Virus record (IMG/VR): IMGVR_UViG_3300041586_000099
Location: 1 to 46,071 of that record
Direction: 5' to 3' (one strand)
From: a virus
DNA: 46,071 nt
Numbering within the stretch: the first letter of the stretch is position 1; every line of letters starts with the position of its first letter. Of the stretch, positions 6,831 through 30,047 are shown piece by piece. The notes under the pieces are model-generated. The model searched no databases. It worked only from the letters and a program-made list of their open reading frames with translations, and was not told the origin of the DNA. Both the position numbers and the translations under genes were made by a program.

Positions 6831-7553
6831 TTATTCTCCGGGGAGGCGGAAACGTCGTCCCGTGCCGCGCGCCTGTGCAACGCCGGGGACCATGGACAGG
6901 GTGCGGTTGTCCGACGACTGCATGGTGGCCTTGAGGTTCGAGTAGCGGTCTGCGGCAAGCTGGAGTTTCAGCCCTGCGTCTTCGGCTTTCTGCGCCGCGA
7001 GGATTTCAGCGGCAGCCATGAGAACGATCAGCGGCCCGTCGATCAGAGACGCATGGGTCTCCACGTCCGTCAGCGGCGGCAGACGTCGCTTGCCGACGAA
7101 CCGCAAGCTGGTGGGCCGGGCCGGGATCGGCCAGACTTCAAACATGCGAAACTCGGGGTCTTCTTCCGCCGGGGAAAGGTAAGGTCGCCAGCGGACCACG
7201 TCCGGGGCGGTTTCGTTGGCGTCGCTGTCGATGTGGTTCAGCTGTTCTTCGTCAATGCCGTAACCGATAACCCGCCACGTCTCCGGGGTGGCCGTCGCCC
7301 GGGCGAAGACTTTCGACAAGGAATTGTGCGAGAGGTTTGCCGGGATGCTGGCGAAACGCTGGCCCGCGTCCAACAGAACAGAACCGTTTTCCCGCAACAG
7401 GGGCCAGTCCCAATCGTCGTAAAGCGTTTCCTGCGTCCGGGCGAGAAGTGAGACGTGGCGTCCGAGCAAGTGGGTTCCGTGCGCCGCGTCCGCGCTCAAC
7501 CGGGCTTCGTGCCGGAGAAGGGTAAGCATTTCAGCAAGGGTCATGCGGCGCAC
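6831..7553 (-). CDS. Head-tail adaptor protein (T7 gp11-like)
   Basis: A 240-aa protein. GTG start at 7551-7553 preceded by GAGG 8 nt upstream; an ATG three codons later is an alternative. The N-terminal half is helical (LAEMLTLLRHEARLS...HVSLLARTQETLYDDWDW) and a tryptophan-rich middle follows, a layout seen in dodecameric adaptors that bind the portal. It is adjacent to and coupled with the nozzle gene (3-bp gap), the usual order in podoviruses. Family placement rests on this pattern and gene order. Confidence 0.6.
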   Translation of the reverse strand: MRRMTLAEMLTLLRHEARLSADAAHGTHLLGRHVSLLARTQETLYDDWDWPLLRENGSVLLDAGQRFASIPANLSHNSLSKVFARATATPETWRVIGYGIDEEQLNHIDSDANETAPDVVRWRPYLSPAEEDPEFRMFEVWPIPARPTSLRFVGKRRLPPLTDVETHASLIDGPLIVLMAAAEILAAQKAEDAGLKLQLAADRYSNLKATMQSSDNRTLSMVPGVAQARGTGRRFRLPGE

Positions 7554-7565
7554 GGGATCAGCCTC

Positions 7566-8033
7566 TTATTCGGACGGCAGTTGGTCGAGCGCCGGGAGAG
7601 CGGCGGTTTCGACCACGGGGGCAGGGGCGTCGGACTTGGCGGCTTCGGCCTTGGTGGCCTTCTTGCTGGCCCGGGGGGCGCGGGTCATGGCCGCGACACG
7701 GGCAACTTCGCCAGCGGTGACTTCGTCCAAGGTCGGGAAGCTGTCGTCAAAGACCGGGAGAGGGAAGGTGTTGCCCATGGGTGGGAACACGGCGCGGACA
7801 ACTTTGTCCCCATAGAGGCCCGCCAGCCGCGAAAATTCATCTTCGGCAGAGCGTTCGTCCGTCTCACCGATGGAGACCAGATCATAGACGTGTTCCGGAC
7901 CCCCGTGGATGGCTTGAAGGATGGCCACTTCCGGGAGGGTCACGGGATCATCTGTGCCGCGATAGGCGGTGTTGTCCCGTGCGGCCCCGAGGTTGATGAT
8001 GCAAGACAGGAGTTGGAATTTGGACTTGGACAA
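7566..8033 (-). CDS. Conserved protein downstream of the capsid gene, function unknown
   Basis: A 155-aa protein. TTG start at 8031-8033 preceded by AAGGAG with a 6-nt gap; longer upstream reading is rejected because it crosses a stable hairpin at 8065-8093. Residues 1-100 look globular (FQLLSCIINLGAARDNTAYRG, EVAILQAIHGGPEHVYDLVS); the last ~50 are Ala/Lys/Pro-rich and probably disordered. Position between major capsid and adaptor genes suggests a head-completion or capsid-binding role. No family recognised. Confidence 0.6.
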   Translation of the reverse strand: MSKSKFQLLSCIINLGAARDNTAYRGTDDPVTLPEVAILQAIHGGPEHVYDLVSIGETDERSAEDEFSRLAGLYGDKVVRAVFPPMGNTFPLPVFDDSFPTLDEVTAGEVARVAAMTRAPRASKKATKAEAAKSDAPAPVVETAALPALDQLPSE

Positions 8034-19413: not shown

Positions 19414-21600
19414 TTAGCGGCCTAGCAGCAGGGTTTCCAGCAGATCGGGCAGGCGGGTCATATCGCTCCCGATGGACAGGGCGCGCTTCTCACCGAACAG
19501 GCCGACAACGGCGGGCGTATCCAATCCGATGCCGTAATGCTCCACGCCCATGCGTGCCTGCATCCTCATTTCCGCGTGCAGGTGGTGATAGGCGTCGCAC
19601 GTCTCACCGTCACAAAGCCAGATGCAAACGCGCCGCGACACTCGCCGGGATGCCAGCAGCGCGCCCGCATATTGCATCTCCGACAGCATAGGGGTGCCGC
19701 CCCATGATCCGGTCGCGCCGTAGGTCTTGATCACGTCCCCGTCGCGCGTGCGGTCTCCAAAACGCTTGAGCGGTGCCACTGATCCGCTTTCAGACGGGAA
19801 ACGGGTTGCGGCGTTCTCCACCCCGGCACGGTCAAGCGCAGGCAGTAGGGCGTCCAGCATCGCAAGGACAACCTGCCACCGACTGCCTTGCCGCGTGCCG
19901 ACAGCGGCCCCGGTTCCCATGCTGCCGGATCCATCCAGCATCAGCAGCACGGCACAGCGCAGGCCGGGCGTGATCGTGCGCCGGGTGAAGACGTCCGGCG
20001 CGCCGATAGACGCCCGGGTGGTCGCGCGGCGGTCAAGCCGCCCCGCCTGCAAGCGCCGGGCTTGGGTAATACTTTCCTCCGACCGCAGACCGCGCCGCAG
20101 GGCGTCCGCTAGGCGGCGGTGCGGAATTTCATCGCGCAGGCGTTGGGTCCGCTCCCTATATTCATCCTCAATCTGTCCATCCGCCGGGGTGGTGGACAGG
20201 AGAAAGCCGCGCGCCGCGTCCGGGGTCAGGGCTTTGGCTGGCGTGCAGCTAAAACCCATCAGATCAGTGTTTTCCGCGCCCGCTGGCATTGCGGCCTCTG
20301 CCATGGCGGCGCGCCGTTCGTCTGCCGTGGCCATGTCGCCAAGGTCCACCGCGTCCGCGCCGCCTTCGCCTGCCGTGCCACCGCCGGACGTTCCCTCGCC
20401 TTCGCCTTCGCCTTCCGCGCCGCCTGCGTCGCCTGCGTCGCCTGCGTCGCCTGCGTCGCCTGCGTCGCCTTCGCCTTTCGCGCCGCCTGCATCGCCTTCG
20501 CCGTCTTGGTCTTGGCCTTCGCCTTCGCCTTCGCCGTCTTGGCCTTCGCCTGCATCGCCTTCGCCTGCATCGCCTTCGCCTTCGCCTTCGCCGTCTTGGC
20601 CTTCGCCTGCATCGCCTTCGCCTGCATCGCCTTCGCCTGCATCGCCTTCGCCTGCATCGCCTTCGCCGTCTTGGCCTTCGCCGTCTTGGCCTTCATCCTG
20701 TGGCTTGGGTTCGGGTTCGGGTTCGGCCTTGGGTGCAGGTTTCGCCGCGTCCGCTGCCTCCAACGCCTCCAACGCCTCCAACAGATGCAAAACTAGGATC
20801 AGCCGCGCAGACCGGGCCGGGCCTGCCTGCCTCTGCGTCTGGGTCTGGGCGTTGCGTTGCAATTCATCTAGCACAGTGTCCGTCAACGTCCGGACGCGGG
20901 GGTCGATCAGCGCGGCCACCTTGGGGTGGTGCGCCGCCATGCCGGGGGCTTCTTGTTGGCCGTGGCGGTTCAGGCTGGCCATGGCGTAAACGACAGATTG
21001 TTCCACTAGGCCACGCCGCTGGACCTGATCAAACCCGGACGCCGGAAACAGTTGATCGTTCAGATACCCAAGGGCGTCGGACGCTCCGGCCAAGAACTTG
21101 CCCGGCGTCGTGGCGTAGGTCTCAATGTAGAAATCCTCAAAAGACTGTGCGAAGCGGTGCAAGACTTGGGCGCGCTGCGAACGGGCATGATATCCCATGT
21201 TCGGCACTTGGCCGGACGGGCAAGACAGGACAGCGTGGCGCAAAAGTGCTTCCGATTGGTCCACGTTGGACAGTAGGACGTGCAGCGTCTCATGGATCAC
21301 AAGACCCAACAGGTGGCGGGCGTAGTCCGCACTCACCAGTGTGTCGGGCGCGATAGTCGGCAGGCCGATGGTGAAATATGACAGAAACGGGTCGTTGGCC
21401 GTGCGCCGTTGCAAGAGGTGGTAAACACTGGCGGTGTGTCCGCCTTCCATGTTCACCCGGATTGCGTTCTCCGCCAAGGGCATGCCCTCGGCGGCGGCGA
21501 TAGCGCGGATGGTCTGGGCGGTGGCCTCTACGAATGTTTTGTAAGGCAGTCTGCCGCTGAAAGCGTAAATGCTTTGTGCGGTCATGGTATCAAGGGCCAT
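19414..21600 (-). CDS. Metallopeptidase-VWA protein (DUF2201/CobT-like), partner of the MoxR ATPase
   Basis: A 728-aa protein. The ATG at 21598-21600 has AAGGA 7 nt upstream. The N-terminal ~270 residues contain HETLH (103-107), an HExxH zincin motif in a helix, with a Glu-rich FEDFYIE downstream as possible third ligand. This resembles the putative metallopeptidase domain that accompanies VWA-like DUF2201 proteins. An acidic repeat linker follows (GEGDA units, coded by 20397-20695). The C-terminal VWA domain starts near residue 545 and has a complete MIDAS: DGSGS 556-560, Thr in GGTP (~636) and Asp in LCDGE (~664). MoxR ATPases work with such VWA partners as remodelling machines; CobS/CobT is one example. 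The substrate is unknown here. Confidence 0.8.
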   Translation of the reverse strand: MALDTMTAQSIYAFSGRLPYKTFVEATAQTIRAIAAAEGMPLAENAIRVNMEGGHTASVYHLLQRRTANDPFLSYFTIGLPTIAPDTLVSADYARHLLGLVIHETLHVLLSNVDQSEALLRHAVLSCPSGQVPNMGYHARSQRAQVLHRFAQSFEDFYIETYATTPGKFLAGASDALGYLNDQLFPASGFDQVQRRGLVEQSVVYAMASLNRHGQQEAPGMAAHHPKVAALIDPRVRTLTDTVLDELQRNAQTQTQRQAGPARSARLILVLHLLEALEALEAADAAKPAPKAEPEPEPKPQDEGQDGEGQDGEGDAGEGDAGEGDAGEGDAGEGQDGEGEGEGDAGEGDAGEGQDGEGEGEGQDQDGEGDAGGAKGEGDAGDAGDAGDAGDAGGAEGEGEGEGTSGGGTAGEGGADAVDLGDMATADERRAAMAEAAMPAGAENTDLMGFSCTPAKALTPDAARGFLLSTTPADGQIEDEYRERTQRLRDEIPHRRLADALRRGLRSEESITQARRLQAGRLDRRATTRASIGAPDVFTRRTITPGLRCAVLLMLDGSGSMGTGAAVGTRQGSRWQVVLAMLDALLPALDRAGVENAATRFPSESGSVAPLKRFGDRTRDGDVIKTYGATGSWGGTPMLSEMQYAGALLASRRVSRRVCIWLCDGETCDAYHHLHAEMRMQARMGVEHYGIGLDTPAVVGLFGEKRALSIGSDMTRLPDLLETLLLGR
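20397..20695 (-). repeat. Acidic tandem repeat tract inside the VWA gene
   Basis: Repeated 15-, 18- and 27-bp units coding GEGDA, GQDGE and similar segments, about 100 residues, nearly all Gly, Glu, Asp, Ala and Gln. All unit lengths are multiples of three. CobT proteins also carry an acidic linker at this place. The tract generates long spurious antisense frames, which should be ignored. Confidence 0.85.
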
Positions 21601-21645
21601 GGGGTTTTCCTTCATCACGTCCGGCGCGGGATTGCGCCACCCCCT

Positions 21646-21674
21646 TCCTACGGTTTCTCTGACGGGGTTGTCAA
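21646..21674 (-). promoter_or_regulatory. Candidate promoter of the VWA gene
   Basis: Minus strand TTGACA (21674-21669), 17-nt spacer, GTAGGA at 21651-21646. The -35 context TCGCTTGACA is the same as at the promoter upstream of 38522. It lies downstream of the terminator at 21690-21723 and about 45 bp before the VWA start. The -10 box is weak. Confidence 0.45.
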
Positions 21675-21689
21675 GCGACTGGCCACGCA

Positions 21690-21723
21690 AACAAGACAAA
21701 ACCCCGGACGCGGGGTCCGGGGT
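21690..21723 (-). terminator. Rho-independent terminator between MoxR/small peptide and the VWA gene
   Basis: Stem ACCCCGGA / TCCGGGGT (21701-21708 and 21716-21723) with a 7-nt loop. In the minus direction it is followed by TTTTGTCTTGTTT. It would stop or attenuate read-through from the ATPase gene, so the VWA gene probably relies partly on its own promoter. Confidence 0.65.
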
Positions 21724-21759
21724 TCTGGGTTCTGGGGTCTGGGGTCTGGGGTCTGGGGC
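21716..21759. repeat. Heptameric minisatellite TCTGGGG
   Basis: Four or more tandem TCTGGGG units with degenerate TTCTGGG units alongside, in the untranslated gap between the 36-aa gene stop and the VWA promoter. G-runs every 7 nt on the plus strand could form a G-quadruplex. Confidence 0.7.
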
Positions 21760-21760
21760 G

Positions 21761-21871
21761 TTACCAGCCTGCCCGATATGCAAGGGCCACGATCGCCACG
21801 CCTGCCGCCCACATGGCCACCGCGTGCAATACGTCCGGGGCCAAGGTCGCCACCGCGTCCGCCAGCATCAT
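21761..21871 (-). CDS. 36-aa membrane peptide between the MoxR and VWA genes
   Basis: The ATG at 21869-21871 overlaps the stop of the ATPase gene (ATGA), giving coupled translation; a second ATG follows immediately. The product is MMLADAVATLAPDVLHA followed by a hydrophobic segment VAMWAAGVAIVALAYRAG and a final Trp, so one membrane span and almost nothing else. It might anchor the ATPase/VWA complex to the membrane. The tiny size means chance cannot be excluded, but overlap, composition and location favour a real gene. Confidence 0.5.
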   Translation of the reverse strand: MMLADAVATLAPDVLHAVAMWAAGVAIVALAYRAGW

Positions 21872-23463
21872 TTGGACGCCTGCAAGGCTTTGGTGGTCCC
21901 GTCTGCCAGCCAAAGTTGGCGCAGGGGTTCCCGGTCGTCAAAGGGCGCGCCTTCCAAAACCGCAAACTGGAAAGCCGCCGTTGGGTGAACGCCTGCGACA
22001 AGGGCTTGCGCCACCGCCATGAGACGTCGCAGACCTACGCCATGCGATACCTTGCCCGCGTCCGCGTCCGCACGGGTCAGGGCTGCAAACTTGGACAGGG
22101 CCAGCGCCTTGGCCTCCGGAACCCCGGTGCGGTTCACCAAAACGCGGGCCTCCACATCGGGCGCGAGATATTTGAAGGGCAGGAAAACCGCGAAACGGTC
22201 AAGAAATCCCCGGTTCAAACGCCGGGTCGCTTCATATTGGCCAGTTTCGTCTCCGGTGCCGTTGGTGTTATCGGCCAAGATGAATAGGACGTCAGGCGCG
22301 ACCGCCACCCGTTCCCCGGTCTCTGCGATGTAAAGCGCGCGCTCCCCATCCAAAACCGCCTGAAACACCAGCAGCGCGCCGGGGCGTGCCACCGATGGTT
22401 CGTCTACCAGTATGACCGCGCCGGGGCGGCGGATTGCGGCGGTCAACTGCCCATCTTGCCATTTGACGCCTTTGGCCGCGTCCGGGACGGTCATGCCTAC
22501 CAGCGTTGCGGCCTCTGTCTGATCATCGCAAGAAATCCGGACAAAAGCGCGGCCCCATCGCGCGGCCACCTGTTTGGCAAATTCTGTTTTCCCGGTGCCT
22601 GCGGGTCCGGTCAAAAAGATATTGCCGCCACCGCCTAGCAGCGCCAGCCCGACGCCACCGACAGCGGGCCAGATGTAGTGTGGATCAACGCGGGGGGCGG
22701 TCTGATCATCATACGCTTCCAAAGCCATGAAGGACGCGGTGGCCACGTTGGCAGGGAAATCCAACCCGGCTTTCTTGGCCGTGCGGCGTCCTTTGGGGTG
22801 TGGCGTCTGGACGCCTGCGCCGATGCCTGCGCCGGGGGTGGTCGTGATGTAAACCGGGGCGGGGGGTGTCAGGGCGCGCCGGGCAAGATCGGTGATTGCG
22901 CTCTTAAAACCGTCAAAATCGCCATGCCCTAGAAATCCGGTAACGCCTTTCACGGCGTCGTCGATTTTTCCGTCCAGCGGGTCCACGTCCTCTGCCTCTG
23001 GGGCGTCCTCTGCCTCTGGGGCGTCGTCTGCCTCTGGGGCGTCGTCTGCCTCTGGGGCGTCGTCTGCCTCTGCATCGACCGTGGCGTAGGCGTCCGCTGC
23101 GGCATGTAGCAGTCGGGCATGCGCCACCTGCGCAGGTGCCGTTCCCGTCAGGCCGGGGGTGGTCGGTGCAGGAAGTGCTTGGCTGTTGATCAAGACCGCC
23201 GCGAGGCCAGCGCCGCCAAGGTGCAGTCCGTGCGCTTGGACGTCCAGCGCAACAAGCGCGTTTGCGCCTGTGTAAGATTGGCTGACCTGCGCCAGTATCA
23301 GAACTTCGTCCGGCGTCGGGATATCTAGTGAAAGCAACGCTGCCGCTTGGACTAGGTCCGCGTTGGTCATGTTCGACACTGTGGTCTGCGTTGGTGCGTT
23401 CGGGTGCCTGCGCACGCGGCTGCGCAGGATTGAGCGGGCGTCATTTGACAGAGTGTTAGCCAT
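21868..23463 (-). CDS. MoxR/CobS-like AAA+ ATPase
   Basis: A 531-aa protein. The ATG at 23461-23463 has AAAGGA about 8 nt upstream. Residues ~1-130 are helical and Ala-rich, 130-160 a repeated acidic linker (EADDAP units), then the AAA+ domain: Walker A GPAGTGKT 286-293, Walker B ILVDEP 351-356, sensor 1 region FILADNTNGTGD and an arginine-rich RRLNRGFLDRF, as in AAA_5/MoxR and cobaltochelatase CobS. The fold forms a ring that remodels targets presented by a VWA partner, here encoded directly downstream. No cobalamin gene is nearby, so chelatase activity is not implied. Confidence 0.85.
   Translation of the reverse strand: MANTLSNDARSILRSRVRRHPNAPTQTTVSNMTNADLVQAAALLSLDIPTPDEVLILAQVSQSYTGANALVALDVQAHGLHLGGAGLAAVLINSQALPAPTTPGLTGTAPAQVAHARLLHAAADAYATVDAEADDAPEADDAPEADDAPEAEDAPEAEDVDPLDGKIDDAVKGVTGFLGHGDFDGFKSAITDLARRALTPPAPVYITTTPGAGIGAGVQTPHPKGRRTAKKAGLDFPANVATASFMALEAYDDQTAPRVDPHYIWPAVGGVGLALLGGGGNIFLTGPAGTGKTEFAKQVAARWGRAFVRISCDDQTEAATLVGMTVPDAAKGVKWQDGQLTAAIRRPGAVILVDEPSVARPGALLVFQAVLDGERALYIAETGERVAVAPDVLFILADNTNGTGDETGQYEATRRLNRGFLDRFAVFLPFKYLAPDVEARVLVNRTGVPEAKALALSKFAALTRADADAGKVSHGVGLRRLMAVAQALVAGVHPTAAFQFAVLEGAPFDDREPLRQLWLADGTTKALQASK
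22986..23067 (-). repeat. 18-bp tandem repeat in the ATPase gene
   Basis: About five in-frame copies of an 18-bp unit (core CTGCCTCTGGGGCGT) coding for EADDAP/EAEDAP. It produces the acidic linker between the N-terminal and AAA+ domains. Not a CRISPR array: there are no spacers. Confidence 0.85.
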
Positions 23464-23520
23464 GGCGGTTTTCCTTTGGGTTGGGTTGCGGCGTCCGGAA
23501 ACGTCCGGGCCTTGGCCAAG

Positions 23521-23549
23521 GTTTACGGGACATCTGACGTGTGTGTCAA
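23521..23549 (-). promoter_or_regulatory. Candidate promoter of the MoxR ATPase gene
   Basis: Minus strand TTGACA (23549-23544), 17-nt spacer, GTAAAC (23526-23521), about 60 bp before the ATPase ATG. This is one of the best promoter matches in the window. Confidence 0.55.
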
Positions 23550-23855
23550 CAGACAAAACGACAAAAGACGCAAACCGGGCCGGGGCGGAGTTTCGCTGGC
23601 GGGGGGTCTGGAGACGCGGGACGGGTCCGGGGTGCCTTCCCCCCTATGCTGGACGTGAGACGCCCGCCCTGCCCCCTGCCAGCGACGCCACGGACGCGGC
23701 GGCGCGGGGGGCGACCCGGAGAGGGCGATACAACCCGCCGAAACAACCCGCCGACCAAACCCGCCGAGGACAAACACCAACACGCTGGATCAGGCGCGGC
23801 GGTTTCGCTATCCTGCAAAACCAACACAACCCGCCAGAACAGGGAAGCCGGAACC
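23550..23855. promoter_or_regulatory. Divergent control region with phased AACCCGCCGA repeats
   Basis: No gene seen. Three exact AACCCGCCGA copies at 23731, 23744 and 23757 are spaced exactly 13 bp; a fourth partial copy (AACCCGCCA) lies at 23828, just before the 216-aa gene. The strand is AC-rich and purine-poor around them. Such direct repeats look like regulator binding sites controlling the divergent genes, possibly for the 216-aa protein itself. Confidence 0.45.
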
Positions 23856-24506
23856 ATGCCTAGCAAACCGCCACGCACTTTCGCGGATCAGATCGCAGAA
23901 CTCCAATCAGGCCGCTATCAGGACATTGGGGCCAAGCCTGTGAAGACGCCGCGCAAACTCATAACCCGTCCCGCATGGGCGGCACGCAAACGGATCGTGG
24001 GTGGACGCGCCACGGAGGAAGTCAGATTGGCCACGCTTGAGAGGGTCCGGGGCGATACGCTGATCCACAAGCAGCGCAAGTGCGCCAAGCCGGGCGGATG
24101 CAAACAACCCGCCGTGAGAGATTGCGACTTCTGCGTCCACCACGGCGGACGCAGCTTGGTGCTTGCCCGTCGTATGAGCGACCCGTCGTGGCGTCCCGGA
24201 AAATACGCGGCCATGCGTGTCGTGCTGTCCCGCGCCGTCTCGGAAGGCACGTTGCCCCCGGAGCTGTCCCAAAACCCGACCTTCCGGGAAATCCTGCAAC
24301 TGGCTTGCTTCCAGAACTCTGCGCCGAAAGGGATGCCGGACCAACGCGGCCACCCGGAGCGGACCGCGTTCTTCTCCCGGCGGAAACAAGCGCGGATCGC
24401 GCTCAACGAATTGCTTGTCGGATGGGCGGCAATCCAAGACGGGGACTTCGGACCTTGGACGCGCGCGCTACAGAACGCCCGGAACATGGGGCTGATCCAC
24501 TTCTAG
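23856..24506 (+). CDS. 216-aa protein with Cys/His cluster (HGG motif), function unknown
   Basis: ATG at 23856. The N-terminal ~60 residues are basic. Then KCAKPGGCKQPAVRDCDFC and VHHGGRS form a Cys4/His2 cluster (residues ~75-100) reminiscent of phage proteins with C-x-x-HGG motifs, which likely bind zinc. The C-terminal half is helical and basic (PGKYAAMRVVLSRAVSEG, FFSRRKQARIALNELLVGW). It is divergent from the MoxR gene and the last gene before the putative origin, so it could be a DNA-binding protein for that region. That role is inference; no family name is assigned. Confidence 0.6.
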   Translation: MPSKPPRTFADQIAELQSGRYQDIGAKPVKTPRKLITRPAWAARKRIVGGRATEEVRLATLERVRGDTLIHKQRKCAKPGGCKQPAVRDCDFCVHHGGRSLVLARRMSDPSWRPGKYAAMRVVLSRAVSEGTLPPELSQNPTFREILQLACFQNSAPKGMPDQRGHPERTAFFSRRKQARIALNELLVGWAAIQDGDFGPWTRALQNARNMGLIHF

Positions 24507-25043
24507 CAGGTTCTACCCGGTTATAGCGGGGCCGCCGGGCAGCCGCCGAGAGGGTCAAAAGCTGTCCCGCAGCGAAACCCTGCAAAATCAAACACTTGAC
24601 CAAAACTAAGGTCTGTCCCGCAGCTGTCCCGCAAGAATTTTCGCTCTGCTGGACAGATAAGCCGCTGATAACAAATCAGAAAACCCGTTCTGTCCCGTGT
24701 CCCGCTATAGCATTGTCTAATATCTTATTTAATACTCAAATCTTACTCATTACTCTATACCCACATATACATAAGGGTCTAGATTTTGGTGGCCGACGGG
24801 ACAAAACGACCTTATCCGGCTGATAACAAACGAAATAAGTTGTCCCGCAGCGACCAAAACCCTGCGGGACAAGGCCCTAGTGCTGGCCATTACCACTTTT
24901 TTGCGGGACAAACTTCTGACAATGGTTGTCAAACCCTCCGGACGTGGCTCCGGACGTGCCCCGGACGTGGCCCGGACGTGGCCCGGACGTGGCGCTCCGC
25001 CGTCGGTTTTGTAGGTTTTGAACTCCACTCCCGAACCTCGAAA
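24507..25043. other. Candidate replication origin: TGTCCCGC iterons and AT-rich island
   Basis: Noncoding. TGTCCCGC/T occurs in direct orientation at 24563, 24614, 24625, 24691, 24698 and 24841, and inverted at 24796, 24864 and 24903: nine copies in ~350 bp. Most are followed by AG or AA. GCTGATAACAAA is repeated at 24664 and 24819. Between them (24706-24790) lies an AT-rich stretch that stands out in this GC-rich sequence. A dyad TGACA-N5-TGTCA is at 24917-24931. The adjacent gene is the primase-helicase. Iterons, an unwinding element and an initiator-type gene together suggest an origin; a multi-operator control region is the alternative. Confidence 0.55.
24938..24995. repeat. Helically phased GGACGTG array
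   Basis: Five GGACGTG words start at 24940, 24952, 24963, 24974 and 24985, spaced 12, 11, 11 and 11 bp, about one helical turn each. The last three units are exact CCCGGACGTGG copies. It lies at the edge of the iteron region. The same word is very common across the whole window. Confidence 0.8.
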
Positions 25044-25078
25044 CACGAAAAAACCCGCCGGAAATCCCCCGGCGGGTT
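25044..25078 (-). terminator. Rho-independent terminator of the primase-helicase gene
   Basis: Perfect 10-bp stem (25052-25061 with 25069-25078), 7-nt loop, followed on the minus strand by TTTTTT. It sits 55 bp after the primase-helicase stop and ends the minus-strand integrase/primase side before the origin-like region. Confidence 0.85.
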
Positions 25079-25132
25079 CTCTGACCTCGCGTTTCTGGCC
25101 CGATCAGGGGTCAGGTGGACCCGTCTCGGGGG

Positions 25133-27676
25133 TCAGGTGGACCCGTCACCGATCCCCAAGTTTCCGACGGCGGCGTCAATAATAGCCTGCGCCTCGGCCA
25201 AGGCCCGGTTCACTTGATCGCCACTCCCAAGCGCCTCGGCGGCAAGCCGTTCCTTGTCGCCCATAGCCGGACCGAACCAGACCATGTGGCGCTCTTTCCC
25301 GGCGCGGCCACGCTTCCCCGGCTTGCACCCCGCATAGTCGATCCCGCTCCGGCAGGACCGGGTGCTGGACCTGACCGCCACGTTCTTCGGCGCGCGGTTC
25401 TGCACCAAAGCCTCCACTTCGGTCAGTGTGAAATAAAGCCGGTTTGCCATGAGGCCCCCGGCCTCGAACTGATCAGCGACCCAACCCGCGACCTCGGACA
25501 TGTTCTCGCGCAGCATTTGGCGCTTGCTGTCCCCAAAATTCGGCGCGGGTGCGAACGGATTGAAGTGCGTTATGTCCCGGGACGCCAGAAATTCATGGAT
25601 GCGCTCCAACTCGGGCAAGTCCTTCAAGGCGGCTCCGATGCGCTGGTAGAACGCAGGCGGGGCCGGGACCGCAGGGGAGATATAAGGGACGAACCGGCGG
25701 TCGTCCGGCTCCATACCGGCCAAGGCGTCCCAATTATTCGTGGACGCCACGAAGTTTGCCGTCGGCTCGAAAGAGTAGGGCTTCATAAACTTCTCGTTCA
25801 GCCGGACGCGACCCGCCGTCGCCCCGGTCCAGTCCTTTATGAGGTTGTAGGTCTGCGCTCCGATCGTCAGGCGCAACTCGCTCAAGACCACCACCTGCGC
25901 CCGCAAGAACTCATTGAACTGTCCCTCAAGGGCCAACCGCCCCGCCCGCAGGACGTTCTGGCTGCCCAGAATTGTGAACAGCGGCTCGAAGATCACGTCC
26001 TTGCCGATGCCCTGCCCCCCAACCAACGTCAGGATGCAGGACGTCCGCGCTCCCGGATGCTGGACAAAAAACGCATAGACGTCCAACCAGAACTCCCGGG
26101 CGTCCTTGTCCGGCAGGACGTGGTCCACCACCTCGAACCACGCCAGCGGCAGACCAACCCGCCGCCCGATCGACCCCGGTTTCCACAGGTTCACATGCGG
26201 CCTGAACTCGTCGTCGCTGGCGGCACGCGCCAACACCACCGCCGCCCGGACGCCGGGCTTGTAGGTCAGGCCGACCGCATGACGCAACCGCCCGTCGTTC
26301 ATGAAGACGTTGGCCGCACGCTTCAACCCGGTCTGGCCCACAGGAAACACCGCCAAGACGGCCTCGGCCCGGTCGAATTGGTCGTGGGTCAAGAGCGACC
26401 GCGTCACGGTGTCGAAGAAAGCGTTTTGCTCGCCCACATAGACATACCGCTCCGACAGTTGCAGCATGGCCCCCACGGACGCTTCTTCTCGCACCACGGC
26501 GTTGCCCGCCACGGTCAAGGCCAGCTTCTCCGCGTCGCGGGTGACAGCGTCGGCGTCGGCACCATCGAACGTGACGCCATGAAACTCGAACCCGGCCCGT
26601 GCCATGAACTCGGACGCCGTGGACGGCTCCCCCGGCGCAAGCGACCCGATCGCGCGTCGCGCGTCCTGTTGTTCGTCGTAGGTGGCTTCCATCATGGCCC
26701 GGAAGTCCACCGATCGCAGCCCTTGGCAGGACGCATGGTGGCATTGTGCCAGTCCGTTACCCAAGAACGCGAAGCCGGTGTCAGCGTTCGCGCTGTGCAT
26801 GCCGATGTTCGGACACAAGGCGTCCACCACTCCGCTCCGCGTCCCCGTCGGGTTCATGCCAACCGCCATGGCCAGCTGAATAAGAGGCTCCGGATTGTTC
26901 AGGTCAGCGACCCGCTGCAAGTTTCCTGCGGCTCCAGTCCCGGCCCGCAACTCGGCGGACGTGAGGCCCCCCAAAGGCATGTCGGCGTCCCGCCAATCAG
27001 CGCGGCCCAACAGCGAAACCCCAATGTCGTTCAAGTCCACTTTCTCGCCACGCCGCCAAGCCGTCAGCCGGACCTCCGGCGACATGCCCACCGCGTTCCG
27101 ATATTTGGGCTTTGAATTCCAGCCGCCGGGCATGCGGATATATCGCGTGGCGTCCATGACGTCGTCGGTGAGGCCCATCTGCGGCAGCCACGCCCGGATC
27201 AGGGCCATGTCCAAGACCCGCTCCGGGGTCCGCCCGTCCCCTGACAAAGACCAACCCCACGTCTCGTTTCCGGGGGACGTCTCGATCTGGAACGTCGGCA
27301 GCGGCATGCCCAACGCAAACAGGGCGTCCCACTTCGCCCGGTCCACCTTGGTCCCGATATCGTCCACGATCAAGATGCCCTGCGAAGCGATGTTTCCCAA
27401 CGTCCGGCGGTCTGCCCCCGGCACCATCTGGCCGATGCAGAAATACAGGTCCAAGTTTTTCGGGGTGTCGAACCGTCGGGTCAGGTGCGACAGTCCCGCG
27501 CGACCGTGCCAAGAGGGAGAGCCTTCAATGTCCGCAAAACCCGTGGTCCAAACGTCGGGGGTGCTGTTCGCAGAAAACACGTCTTCCAGAAAAGCGCGCA
27601 TGCCGTCCCAAGTGTCGATGGATCGGGGCAGGGTTCCGGGTTTCGCGGGCGTGCCGACGAAAGGGGTTTGGTCCAT
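25133..27676 (-). CDS. Primase-helicase (RepB-type primase plus SF3/DUF5906-like helicase)
   Basis: An 847-aa protein. The ATG at 27674-27676 has AAGGA 9 nt upstream. N-terminal primase/primpol region: ILIVDDIGTK at ~101-110 (Asp pair as in RepB-like and archaeo-eukaryotic primases) and RMPGGWNSKPKY at ~181-192. A Cys/His cluster (C288, H294, C312, H313, H314, C317) looks like a zinc-binding stem. The C-terminal helicase: Walker A GGQGIGKD 553-560, an acidic segment VVVLSEL, sensor ASTNN and EPDDRRF (Arg finger-like), as in phage DUF5906/NrS-1-type enzymes. It would prime and unwind at the phage origin, which may lie just downstream. Confidence 0.85.
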   Translation of the reverse strand: MDQTPFVGTPAKPGTLPRSIDTWDGMRAFLEDVFSANSTPDVWTTGFADIEGSPSWHGRAGLSHLTRRFDTPKNLDLYFCIGQMVPGADRRTLGNIASQGILIVDDIGTKVDRAKWDALFALGMPLPTFQIETSPGNETWGWSLSGDGRTPERVLDMALIRAWLPQMGLTDDVMDATRYIRMPGGWNSKPKYRNAVGMSPEVRLTAWRRGEKVDLNDIGVSLLGRADWRDADMPLGGLTSAELRAGTGAAGNLQRVADLNNPEPLIQLAMAVGMNPTGTRSGVVDALCPNIGMHSANADTGFAFLGNGLAQCHHASCQGLRSVDFRAMMEATYDEQQDARRAIGSLAPGEPSTASEFMARAGFEFHGVTFDGADADAVTRDAEKLALTVAGNAVVREEASVGAMLQLSERYVYVGEQNAFFDTVTRSLLTHDQFDRAEAVLAVFPVGQTGLKRAANVFMNDGRLRHAVGLTYKPGVRAAVVLARAASDDEFRPHVNLWKPGSIGRRVGLPLAWFEVVDHVLPDKDAREFWLDVYAFFVQHPGARTSCILTLVGGQGIGKDVIFEPLFTILGSQNVLRAGRLALEGQFNEFLRAQVVVLSELRLTIGAQTYNLIKDWTGATAGRVRLNEKFMKPYSFEPTANFVASTNNWDALAGMEPDDRRFVPYISPAVPAPPAFYQRIGAALKDLPELERIHEFLASRDITHFNPFAPAPNFGDSKRQMLRENMSEVAGWVADQFEAGGLMANRLYFTLTEVEALVQNRAPKNVAVRSSTRSCRSGIDYAGCKPGKRGRAGKERHMVWFGPAMGDKERLAAEALGSGDQVNRALAEAQAIIDAAVGNLGIGDGST

Positions 27677-27798: not shown

Positions 27799-28866
27799 TC
27801 AAGGCCCGGCGCGGCGTCCTGCCCCTGCGGCGCGGCGCAGATAGTCTGGCGAAAACATGGCGTAGTGGCGCTCGACCACCGCGACCGTGTCGCCCATGAA
27901 GGCGGCGACCTCACCCAGAGGCACGCCCGACATGACCCGCAACGTGGCCCACGTCCGGCGCAGATCGTGAATGTGCAACCAGTCGAAGCCCAACTCCGCC
28001 CGGAACGCCGTGAACGCGAACCGCAAAGACCCGTCGTGGCCCAAGACCAACCCATCAAGAGGCTGGCCCGCCTCGGCCCACACCTGTTCAAGCACTTCGC
28101 AAAGTTCTTCGGACATGGGCAACATGACCCGCCGTTTTTTGGTGACGGTCATTTTTGGGTCGCGCAGATCGACCATCTTTCTGACAAAGTCCACCCGGTC
28201 CCACGTCAGGCCAAGCACCGCGCTCATGCGCCCCGCAGTTTCCAACGCCAGACAGACGAACAACCCCACCCGGCGCACGCTGTCCGACAGTGACTTGTCC
28301 AAGGCGCGGTCCCGCGCAGCCGTCCAGAACAACGCCTCTTGGTCGCGGTCAAGGTAGCCTTGGCGCGCCGCGCCGTCCGGCGGCAGATCGAAGTGCGGCA
28401 GAGACCCCACCGGAATGATCCGCGTCCGCTCGGCCCACTTCAAGGCCGCGCGCAGCGCACCCAACTCCCGCCGGACGGTTCCCGTCGCTATCCCCAACCC
28501 CGTGCGCTTGCGCCTATAAAAGACGACATGCTCTGGCGACAGGTCCGCCACGAAAATCCCGCCAAGACCTTTGAGCGGGGCTTGCAAACTGTTCGCCTGC
28601 GACTTGCCCTGCCCGTTCAGCCCGATCTTGTCGTCCAGATACTTGGCAATCACGTCTCCCACTGACAGGCTCACCGCCGCCCGGCCCAAGGTGTTCATGG
28701 CGTGCAGCCAATTCAGCCGCGCGGTCTCCGCGACATGGCGATCTTTTGTGCGGCACGAATAAGATCGGGTGCGGGCGCGGCTCCCCGTCCCGGCGTCCCG
28801 CTCCGTCCATCTGACTTCCCAATTCCCCGAACGGTTCTGTTCAAGTCTGGTTTCATGCAAGTCCAT
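27799..28866 (-). CDS. int: Tyrosine-type integrase
   Basis: A 355-aa site-specific recombinase. The ATG at 28864-28866 has a good GGAG 7 nt upstream, lying inside the preceding reading frame. The N-terminal arm-binding region begins LHETRLEQNRSGNWEVRW; the core-binding domain covers ~65-165. Catalytic residues: Arg in ETAGRMSAVLGLTW (~215), Lys in VTKKRRVML, HDLRR (His-x-x-Arg) and the nucleophile Tyr in VVERHYAMF. All are present, so it should be active. It integrates and excises the genome at att sites, which I could not identify. It makes this a temperate phage. Confidence 0.92.
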   Translation of the reverse strand: MDLHETRLEQNRSGNWEVRWTERDAGTGSRARTRSYSCRTKDRHVAETARLNWLHAMNTLGRAAVSLSVGDVIAKYLDDKIGLNGQGKSQANSLQAPLKGLGGIFVADLSPEHVVFYRRKRTGLGIATGTVRRELGALRAALKWAERTRIIPVGSLPHFDLPPDGAARQGYLDRDQEALFWTAARDRALDKSLSDSVRRVGLFVCLALETAGRMSAVLGLTWDRVDFVRKMVDLRDPKMTVTKKRRVMLPMSEELCEVLEQVWAEAGQPLDGLVLGHDGSLRFAFTAFRAELGFDWLHIHDLRRTWATLRVMSGVPLGEVAAFMGDTVAVVERHYAMFSPDYLRRAAGAGRRAGP

Positions 28867-29081
28867 GTTTTCGCTCCATCAATAAACGCCAGAAGGTCCG
28901 GCTTGGTGATCTTGACTGGTCGCCCCGGCAGATACTTGAGAAACCCCGCCGCGCGCCAACGCGCCACGGTCCGGGGCGTAGTCCGCAGCAAGTCCGCGAC
29001 CTCGGCCTGTGTCAGGACGTCCGGACAGTCTTTGAACATTTCGGGGGGCGAACTGCCCCACCCGTTACGGTGCAGTCCCAT
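28713..29081 (-). CDS. Excisionase-like HTH protein overlapping the integrase gene
   Basis: A 122-aa reading frame from the ATG at 29079-29081 (ATG at 29037-29039 possible). The core VLTQAEVADLLRTTPRTVARWRAAGF, then PVKITKPDLLAFIDG, is a winged-helix MerR/HTH_17 excisionase or regulator domain. It should end functionally near FIDGAKTW, but the frame continues 50 codons into the integrase gene (28713-28866), in the frame one nucleotide away. The overlap is unusually long for neighbouring phage genes. Likely RDF/Xis or integrase regulator. Confidence 0.7.
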   Translation of the reverse strand: MGLHRNGWGSSPPEMFKDCPDVLTQAEVADLLRTTPRTVARWRAAGFLKYLPGRPVKITKPDLLAFIDGAKTWTCMKPDLNRTVRGIGKSDGRSGTPGRGAAPAPDLIRAAQKIAMSRRPRG

Positions 29082-29526
29082 GTTTGTGGCTTTGTTCGGA
29101 CAGGAGAACCATCACTTGCGCGGCAGCCGCCATGGACACGACCATGTCCACTTGCAGCCGGGCGATATTCGGCTGGCCCTCAAGCGCCGTCAGCCGGTAG
29201 ACCGGAGACGTGTCCGCGTGCGCCCGCTCGGCCACAAGGTCCGGGGCCAGCTGGTCAACAGCCAACCCAAGCACGCGCGCCAGTGCCTCAAGGTTCTCGC
29301 GGGTCGGGGCCGATTTGCCCTTCTCGTATGCGGACACGCGGTCCCGGCTTTTGGCCACGGTGTAACCCCGCGCGTCTTCGACCGTCCCCCAGACGCTCCG
29401 TGCCAAGTCGCTTTGTGACAGGCCCATCGCCCGGCGGGCTTGGTAAAGTCTCGAAGGAAAAGTTCCGGTAAGATCAACTGGTTTTGCGCCCGGTCCCCAC
29501 GGGGCGTTTCTGTTTTCGGCAGCCAT
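29065..29526 (-). CDS. CI-like repressor with XRE helix-turn-helix
   Basis: A 153-aa protein. The ATG at 29524-29526 is preceded by AAGGAATAACATC. HTH region: LYQARRAMGLSQSDLARSV, an insertion GTVEDARGYTVAKSRD, then RVSAYEKGKSAPTRENLEAL. The ~60-residue tail (YRLTALEGQPNIARLQVDMVV) may be for dimerisation; there is no LexA/S24 peptidase motif, so it is probably not RecA-cleaved. It is divergent from the Cro-like gene across a perfect 22-bp inverted repeat and is the likely lysogeny master regulator. Confidence 0.75.
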   Translation of the reverse strand: MAAENRNAPWGPGAKPVDLTGTFPSRLYQARRAMGLSQSDLARSVWGTVEDARGYTVAKSRDRVSAYEKGKSAPTRENLEALARVLGLAVDQLAPDLVAERAHADTSPVYRLTALEGQPNIARLQVDMVVSMAAAAQVMVLLSEQSHKHGTAP

Positions 29527-29557
29527 GATGTTATTCCTTTCAATAACTAACACTCCA

Positions 29558-29586
29558 CATGTTGGTTCATTTGACTGTTCTGTCAA
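29558..29586 (-). promoter_or_regulatory. Promoter of the repressor gene with overlapping dyad
   Basis: Minus strand TTGACA (29586-29581), 17-nt spacer, AACATG (29563-29558), ~30 bp before the repressor start. The -35 box is embedded in TTGACTGTTCTGTCAA (29571-29586), an imperfect dyad related to TTGACAGAACTGTCAA upstream of 38522. A bound regulator would cover the -35 box. Confidence 0.5.
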
Positions 29587-29599
29587 GTCCTACACAACC

Positions 29600-29676
29600 G
29601 ACGCAGCTTATAGGTCTGGCAGGAAAACTTCCCTATCCGACTAGATATTGCGGTTGCCAGACCTATAAGCTGCGTC
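29600..29676. promoter_or_regulatory. Immunity operator: perfect 22-bp inverted repeat with divergent promoters
   Basis: 29600-29621 is the exact reverse complement of 29655-29676, with a 33-bp spacer containing TTCCCTATCCG. Each arm contains CAGACCTATAAGCTGCGTC in outward orientation. On the plus strand TTGCCA-N17-ATATTG (29654-29682) overlaps the right arm and reads toward the Cro-like gene. This is the expected layout of a pair of repressor operators controlling the lysogenic/lytic switch. Confidence 0.65.
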
Positions 29677-29765
29677 ATATTGTCGGTTTCGTCAGATAGT
29701 TATTTCAACACAATGCGCGACAAAAGGCGACGAACCGACACAATCAACTGAAAAGAGGCAGCACA

Positions 29766-30047
29766 ATGGCCCAGAACCCCGAAGCTACAGGCCCGCAACA
29801 AGTCCACTGGCGCGACAAGGCCATCATCGCCGCCGCCGGAAGCAATCCCGAAGCCATCCGCGCCTTGCTGGACCGGAACAGCCATCCCGCGCCCTCGGAC
29901 GCCGCCCTCTATCAGTGGAAGTCTCGCGGCGCGATCCCGAACCATTGGCGTCCGGCGCTGATCCACGCCCTCCTGGTCGAAAAGCGCGTCTCGGTCGATC
30001 AACTGTTCTGCCGCGCTCCGTTGCGCGCGCACGTCCCCGCCGCATGA
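29766..30047 (+). CDS. Cro-like transcriptional regulator
   Basis: A 93-aa protein, first gene of the plus-strand early operon. AAGAGGCAGCACA precedes the ATG. The HTH-like stretch AALYQWKSRGAIPNHWRPALI matches the pattern of Cro/YdaS-type phage regulators (recognition helix followed by RGxIP and a tryptophan). It lies across the operator from the CI-like gene, so it probably represses the repressor promoter to favour lytic growth. Its stop overlaps the next start (ATGA). Confidence 0.7.
   Translation: MAQNPEATGPQQVHWRDKAIIAAAGSNPEAIRALLDRNSHPAPSDAALYQWKSRGAIPNHWRPALIHALLVEKRVSVDQLFCRAPLRAHVPAA

Follow-up and report, generated by a model that had tools for sequence, protein, structure and literature searches.

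In the PICIs of both Gram-positive and Gram-negative bacteria, the replication origin lies immediately 3' of rep and always comprises two iteron sets flanking an AT-rich region (PMC6092414). These origins are functional, the pri-rep-ori segment of an E. coli PICI maintaining a plasmid (PMC6092414), and their plan has been described in the literature as found in "no other known bacterial replicon". It is through the C-terminal domain that SaPI Rep recognizes its iterons, and its homologue in SCCmec, the D5-type helicase Cch2, binds short direct repeats situated directly downstream of the gene encoding it (PMC7581432). Satellite phage P4 alpha fuses a primase, a helicase and a C-terminal origin-binding domain that reads short iterons (PMC4234260, and in part general knowledge). 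The crenarchaeal plasmid pRN1 and phage BIP-1 combine an AEP primase, an SF3 helicase and a winged helix, with the origin just downstream of the gene, in pRN1 as a stem-loop (PMC4234260). Here we describe a candidate origin built on the PICI plan in a complete phage.

The stretch of DNA analysed (henceforth the window) is a 46,071-bp record of an uncultured virus, a tailed phage that is probably temperate. Among its products are a terminase large subunit, portal, major head protein, exonuclease and family-A-type DNA polymerase, together with a tyrosine integrase (27799-28866), an HTH regulator (29065-29586), a RuvC-like resolvase and an SNF2 helicase. A first-pass annotation had proposed an iteron-type origin around an AT-rich section at a convergent gene boundary next to a primase-helicase. 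Indeed, the section falls between the stop codons of a 216-aa protein gene (+) and the 847-aa primase-helicase gene (-), immediately 3' of the latter, but the gap comprises 626 non-coding bases and reaches position 25132 rather than ending at 25043 as originally given (Table 1). All nine annotated copies of TGTCCCG(C/T), six direct and three inverted, are present within a span of 348 bp, and the array begins 222 bp past the stop codon of the primase-helicase gene. Dinucleotide-preserving shuffling of the gap (2000 rounds) yielded 0.13 copies of TGTCCCG on average and two at most, and no 7-mer reached nine copies. The annotation had also named an equal frequency of the word across the genome as the outcome that would speak against an origin; against nine heptamers in the gap we found 11 scattered occurrences in the rest of the 46 kb, and the proposal withstood this check. 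With the coding tandem repeats of a CobT-like gene set aside, this is the strongest 7-mer cluster of the window.

Table 1. Features of the proposed origin and its flanking genes, in window coordinates
Feature	Position	Strand	Remarks
216-aa Cys/His (CxxHGG) protein	23856..24506	+	Conserved neighbour only in L110
Convergent intergenic gap with proposed origin	24507..25132	.	Delimited by the stop codons of both flanking genes (23856-24506, +; 25133-27676, -)
Primase-distal iteron block, five TGTCCCG	24563..24705	+	Copies at 24563, 24614, 24625, 24691, 24698; one-mismatch reverse copy (TGTCCAGC, -) at 24648
GCTGATAACAAA, first copy	24664..24675	+	Left of AT island
AT island, proposed duplex-melting site	24706..24790	.	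72% A+T; also ranks first as 60-bp window
Primase-proximal iteron block	24796..24910	-	Copies at 24796 (-), 24841 (+, flipped), 24864 (-), 24903 (-)
GCTGATAACAAA, second copy	24819..24830	+	Right of AT island
Inverted iteron pair TTGTCCCGCAG/CTGCGGGACAA	24840..24872	.	11-nt loop, hairpin-capable
Five CCGGACGTG repeats	24936..24993	+	11-12 bp spacing, between iterons and primase gene
AACCCGCCGG/CCGGCGGGTT hairpin	25052..25078	.	Inverted repeat I8, between convergent genes
Primase-helicase, 847 aa, proposed initiator	25133..27676	-	RepB'-like primase, SF3 helicase (DUF5906/VapE-like), C-terminal winged helix

The AT-rich section, described beforehand as unique, has the highest A+T content of any 85 bp in the window, the runner-up reaching 61%, and the window's most A+T-rich 60 bp separate four iteron copies from the other five. 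Viewed from the primase side, the sites are oriented + + - + / AT island / - - - - -. The second repeat listed by the annotation, GCTGATAACAAA, occurs exactly twice in the gap and flanks the AT island. The CCGGACGTG repeats form another phased array, and two 22-bp tandem copies of TCAGGGGTCAGGTGGACCCGTC (25104-25147) lie across the 3' end of the primase-helicase gene. We take the AACCCGCCGG/CCGGCGGGTT hairpin to be the probable transcription terminator of the convergent genes; a scan for consensus terminators did not list it. The gap holds one IHF-like match, at 24586. A DnaA-assisted origin of the type seen in Rep_3/RepA iteron plasmids was rejected, since the gap has no DnaA box (TTWTNCACA) and the neighbouring gene encodes a primase-helicase.

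The primase-helicase carries a RepB_primase domain (Pfam, 1.4e-7) and a DUF5906/VapE-like SF3 helicase. A profile built from 28 relatives matched the NrS-1 primase in the PDB (1e-31) and the SaPI PriRep1 chain 7pds, named 'similar to D. nodosus vapE' (6.8e-5). At the structural level, the predicted model aligned with the C-terminal region of NrS-1 (Z 25.9, 366 residues, 5.6 A) and with the SaPI5 primase-helicase (7om0, Z 19.1, 320 residues, 4.3 A; 7ola, Z 18.7), while its N-terminus matched RepB' (3h20, Z 11.3) and also the S-2L PrimPol. The primase domain thus resembles that of the RSF1010 oriV system (RepB', RepA, RepC). Unlike the window, RSF1010 uses separate helicase and iteron-binding proteins. 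When modelled alone, the last 130 residues were predicted to fold as beta-helix-helix-helix-wing with a core pLDDT above 90, and the best structural matches of this domain were mostly winged-helix proteins, each of them weak (Z 5-7). These matches are general to winged helices, and none points specifically to a known origin-binding domain; the P4 alpha domain is absent from the matches listed, which excludes nothing. The TGTCCCG iterons are most likely bound by the primase-helicase itself, as suggested by the predicted winged helix and by the same layout at related loci, both of which favour it over the 216-aa protein.

How closely does this locus follow the satellite replicons? Every sequence-level feature of PICI-type origins that we tested was found in the window, including the location immediately 3' of the initiator/helicase gene and a related helicase with a SaPI-Rep-like fold. 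As in SaPIbov1, SaPI5 and EcCICFT073, two iteron sets surround an AT-rich region directly 3' of the primase/initiator-helicase gene. By contrast, the iteron word differs, the protein is 12% identical in the aligned region, and the genome is of a complete phage type with terminase, portal, capsid and its own polymerase; with virion genes of its own, the element cannot be classed as a PICI satellite. The other described systems differ as well: Cch2 has only three 5-nt iterons and a separate primase protein, the P4 primase is of the TOPRIM type whereas that of the window is RepB'/AEP-type, and pRN1, although it shares the domain order, has a 100-bp origin stem-loop without iterons. Taking all the evidence together, including the relatives described below, we estimate at about 0.83 the probability that a complete tailed phage has its replication origin in this gap, built on the SaPI/PICI plan. 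The comparison also supports a more specific origin type than was first proposed, in which an AT island lies between two oppositely oriented iteron sets and the whole adjoins the 3' end of the gene for a putatively self-loading SF3 primase-helicase.

Loci of related primase-helicases strongly favour the annotation's reading of an iteron-type origin beside this gene, which is the best one. Single-protein queries for close relatives of the 216-aa protein, the primase and the CobS protein returned none, and an alignment query found relatives in viral contigs and none in bacterial genomes. L110, the closest relative, carries a primase with 39% identity to that of the window and shares its gene order, with the integrase upstream and the homologue of the 216-aa protein convergent. 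In its homologous gap the AT island occupies the same place and the word is a different one, CCTA(A/G), with seven copies in 265 bp out of 17 in 10.4 kb. When one near-copy (CCTTA) is counted too, the sites run + + - + + + / island / - -. Further relatives carry TGTGCAG (L111, L112, L115 and L170), TGTCACA (L153), GTGTGAC (L173), TGCTGTG (L128) or GTGTTCA (L137). Where sites flank the island on both sides, most loci have a distal block oriented against the majority of the proximal one: all distal sites are so oriented in the window, L110, L111, L112, L115, L153, L173 and L189, and most of these eight also have a single flipped copy inside the proximal block.

We then asked how general the pattern is. 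In a non-redundant set of 36 SF3 loci, the A+T-richest 60 bp fell into the first 400 bp past the 3' end of the gene in 16, against an expectation of 1.8, and into the matching 5' flank in none. Clustered 7-mers were found in 11 of 38 3' flanks. Among other windows the figure was 22 of 571 (Fisher p 9e-7), and among AT-rich ones 7 of 80 (p 0.006); the latter is the fairer control, because repeats are naturally placed in non-coding 3' flanks. These counts include the seed phage, and dropping one locus would not alter the picture. A statistical co-variation of iteron words with primases could not be demonstrated. Twelve named isolates with distant homologues did not serve as an independent replication: significant iterons were found in one, Curvibacter phage PCA1, where they are clear and accompanied by an AT island, and the A+T maximum of the locus lay in the 3' flank in two, so the pattern is not universal. 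The origin plan is common in some branches.

By terminase, the named phages that match best are Microcystis phage Mae-Yong1326-1 (55%), whose gene content and order are very similar to those of the window, and Rhizobium phage RHph_N65 (45%). Like the window, both have arrays of repeats in the gap that follows the primase-helicase gene at its 3' end, with about seven TTGCGCCAGTC-like copies in the former and 12 of GCGGAGA in the latter, but their helicase is of the AAA_25/RecA type, not SF3, and a marked AT island is lacking. Iteron-like arrays 3' of AAA_25-type primase-helicases in related phages map to L014:34931-35134 (GCGGAGA x12) and L015:5176-5385 (TTGCGCCAGTC x7). The position beside the primase-helicase is thus conserved despite an exchange of helicase type.

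These observations suggest how initiation might proceed. The winged helix of the primase-helicase would bind the TGTCCCG iterons, and the two oppositely oriented sets would seat two helicase hexamers face to face; opposed blocks are what two facing rings would need. ATP-driven remodelling may then melt the AT island, allowing the hexamers to load onto opposite strands, and the fused RepB'-like primase would supply the family-A polymerase of the phage with its first primers. An initiator that reads sites beside its own gene would let gene and origin move and diverge jointly, which may explain why the position is conserved while the word changes.

The identity of the binder bears on this scheme, as the first-pass annotation had offered the 216-aa Cys/His protein as an alternative. 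Its gene borders the gap directly, and in L110 the same convergent position is occupied by a homologue (29% identity over 140 aa, E 1e-10), yet none was found in the other iteron-bearing loci, which makes this protein an unlikely reader of the iterons; a host factor is unlikely too, since the word differs between relatives while the position is kept. That either of them is the initiator at a true origin here strikes us as improbable. The iterons might instead belong to a regulatory circuit or to the recombination site of the phage. As operators of the phage repressor (the HTH protein) or of another regulator, sites of 7-8 bp in both orientations would be quite suitable, and such a regulator is present, but we found no sigma-70-like promoter in the gap region, where both flanking genes end, and no TGTCCCG in the regulator's own promoter region (29587-29914); operators would also leave the AT island and the primase 3' ends in relatives unexplained, and we consider them hardly credible. 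In an attP region, the repeats would be arm-type sites and the AT island part of an AT-rich core used by the tyrosine integrase encoded nearby. Regions of this kind are often AT-rich with repeated arm sites. However, the integrase gene is 2.7 kb off, beyond the primase gene, no tRNA gene was found in the window, and L128 (a terminase-bearing record of 43 kb) and L125 (39 kb) keep the 3' AT island and repeats without a PF00589 match, although these records may be incomplete. We regard an attP as very unlikely.

GC skew provides the argument that the locus is a replication fork terminus or a partition site. The annotation had expected a cumulative minimum here; instead, the locus sits at the edge of the maximum plateau, and the cumulative skew peaks at the iteron locus both in the window and in Mae-Yong1326-1. 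With the usual leading-strand excess of G, a skew maximum marks the terminus, and the iteron locus would then be the terminus and the origin would lie near 40-41 kb. On the + strand, third-position skew starts out positive, flips to negative near 24 kb, stays so until 39 kb and flips again near 40 kb. Its sign is independent of the strand of the genes, whose direction alone therefore fails to account for it; the cumulative extremes of Mae-Yong1326-1, at 4.7 and 23.7 kb, correspond to the places of the two flips. We therefore do not count GC skew as support for an origin, its direction being opposite or uninformative. At the other extreme (40.2-40.8 kb), on the other hand, we found only two-copy repeats and ordinary hairpins and no iteron array, and an origin there was rejected on this ground. 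A terminus has no need of an AT island with inverted iteron sets beside an initiator-like gene, and no ParA/ParB-like partner of a partition site was seen in the part of the gene set that was scanned; either function seems scarcely plausible to us. The skew conflict would be accounted for by a C-rich leading strand or by late rolling-circle replication that sets the skew, or else by an origin near 40-41 kb.

If the gap is the predicted origin, the origin of an uncultured phage lineage is narrowed to a few hundred bases and its likely initiator named. This kind of origin is already known; what stands out here is the PICI plan in complete phages and the site geometry they share. A plan reported as peculiar to phage satellites would be extended to complete phages, which bears on the source of satellite replicons. 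We lean slightly towards the broader view that the SaPI/PICI plan is widespread as an origin type among ordinary tailed phages whose initiators are of the PrimPol-SF3-winged-helix kind, with one conserved geometry (a proximal block with a single flipped site, an AT island and an opposite distal block) and lineage-specific words. If so, an initiator's word can be read from the DNA 3' of its gene, and a practical rule for primase-SF3 helicases would be to search there for iteron sets in inverted orientation that flank the local A+T maximum.

TGTCCCG itself was rejected as a general virus motif: 94 virus stretches have paired copies, compared with 78 for a reversed-word control, and at least five copies within 500 bp occur in 25 versus 17, an excess too small for such a claim. 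Other phage contigs do contain four to seven copies (L086:6418-6531, L047:10871-11004, L020, L081, L021 and L108:8124-8271). Those of L086 sit within a gene resembling a winged-helix (O-like) replication initiator, and the flanks of the other contigs look alike; some spacings in these contigs, of 11 bp, are not multiples of three, suggesting selection at the DNA level, as for lambda's origin inside O.

Two proteins encoded next to the locus (19414-23556), a CobS-like AAA+ ATPase and a VWA protein of CobT type that contains a long DAGEGQ-type repeat, also occur as a pair in Mae-Yong1326-1. Between the start of the 216-aa gene and the divergent CobS-like gene lie AACCCGCC repeats at 23732, 23745, 23758 and 23828 (23732-23835), which are possibly operators. 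At the homologous place L110 has five copies of AACCCGC (about 7513-7625), so that the two phages have kept this word in common, which they have not done with the origin iterons.
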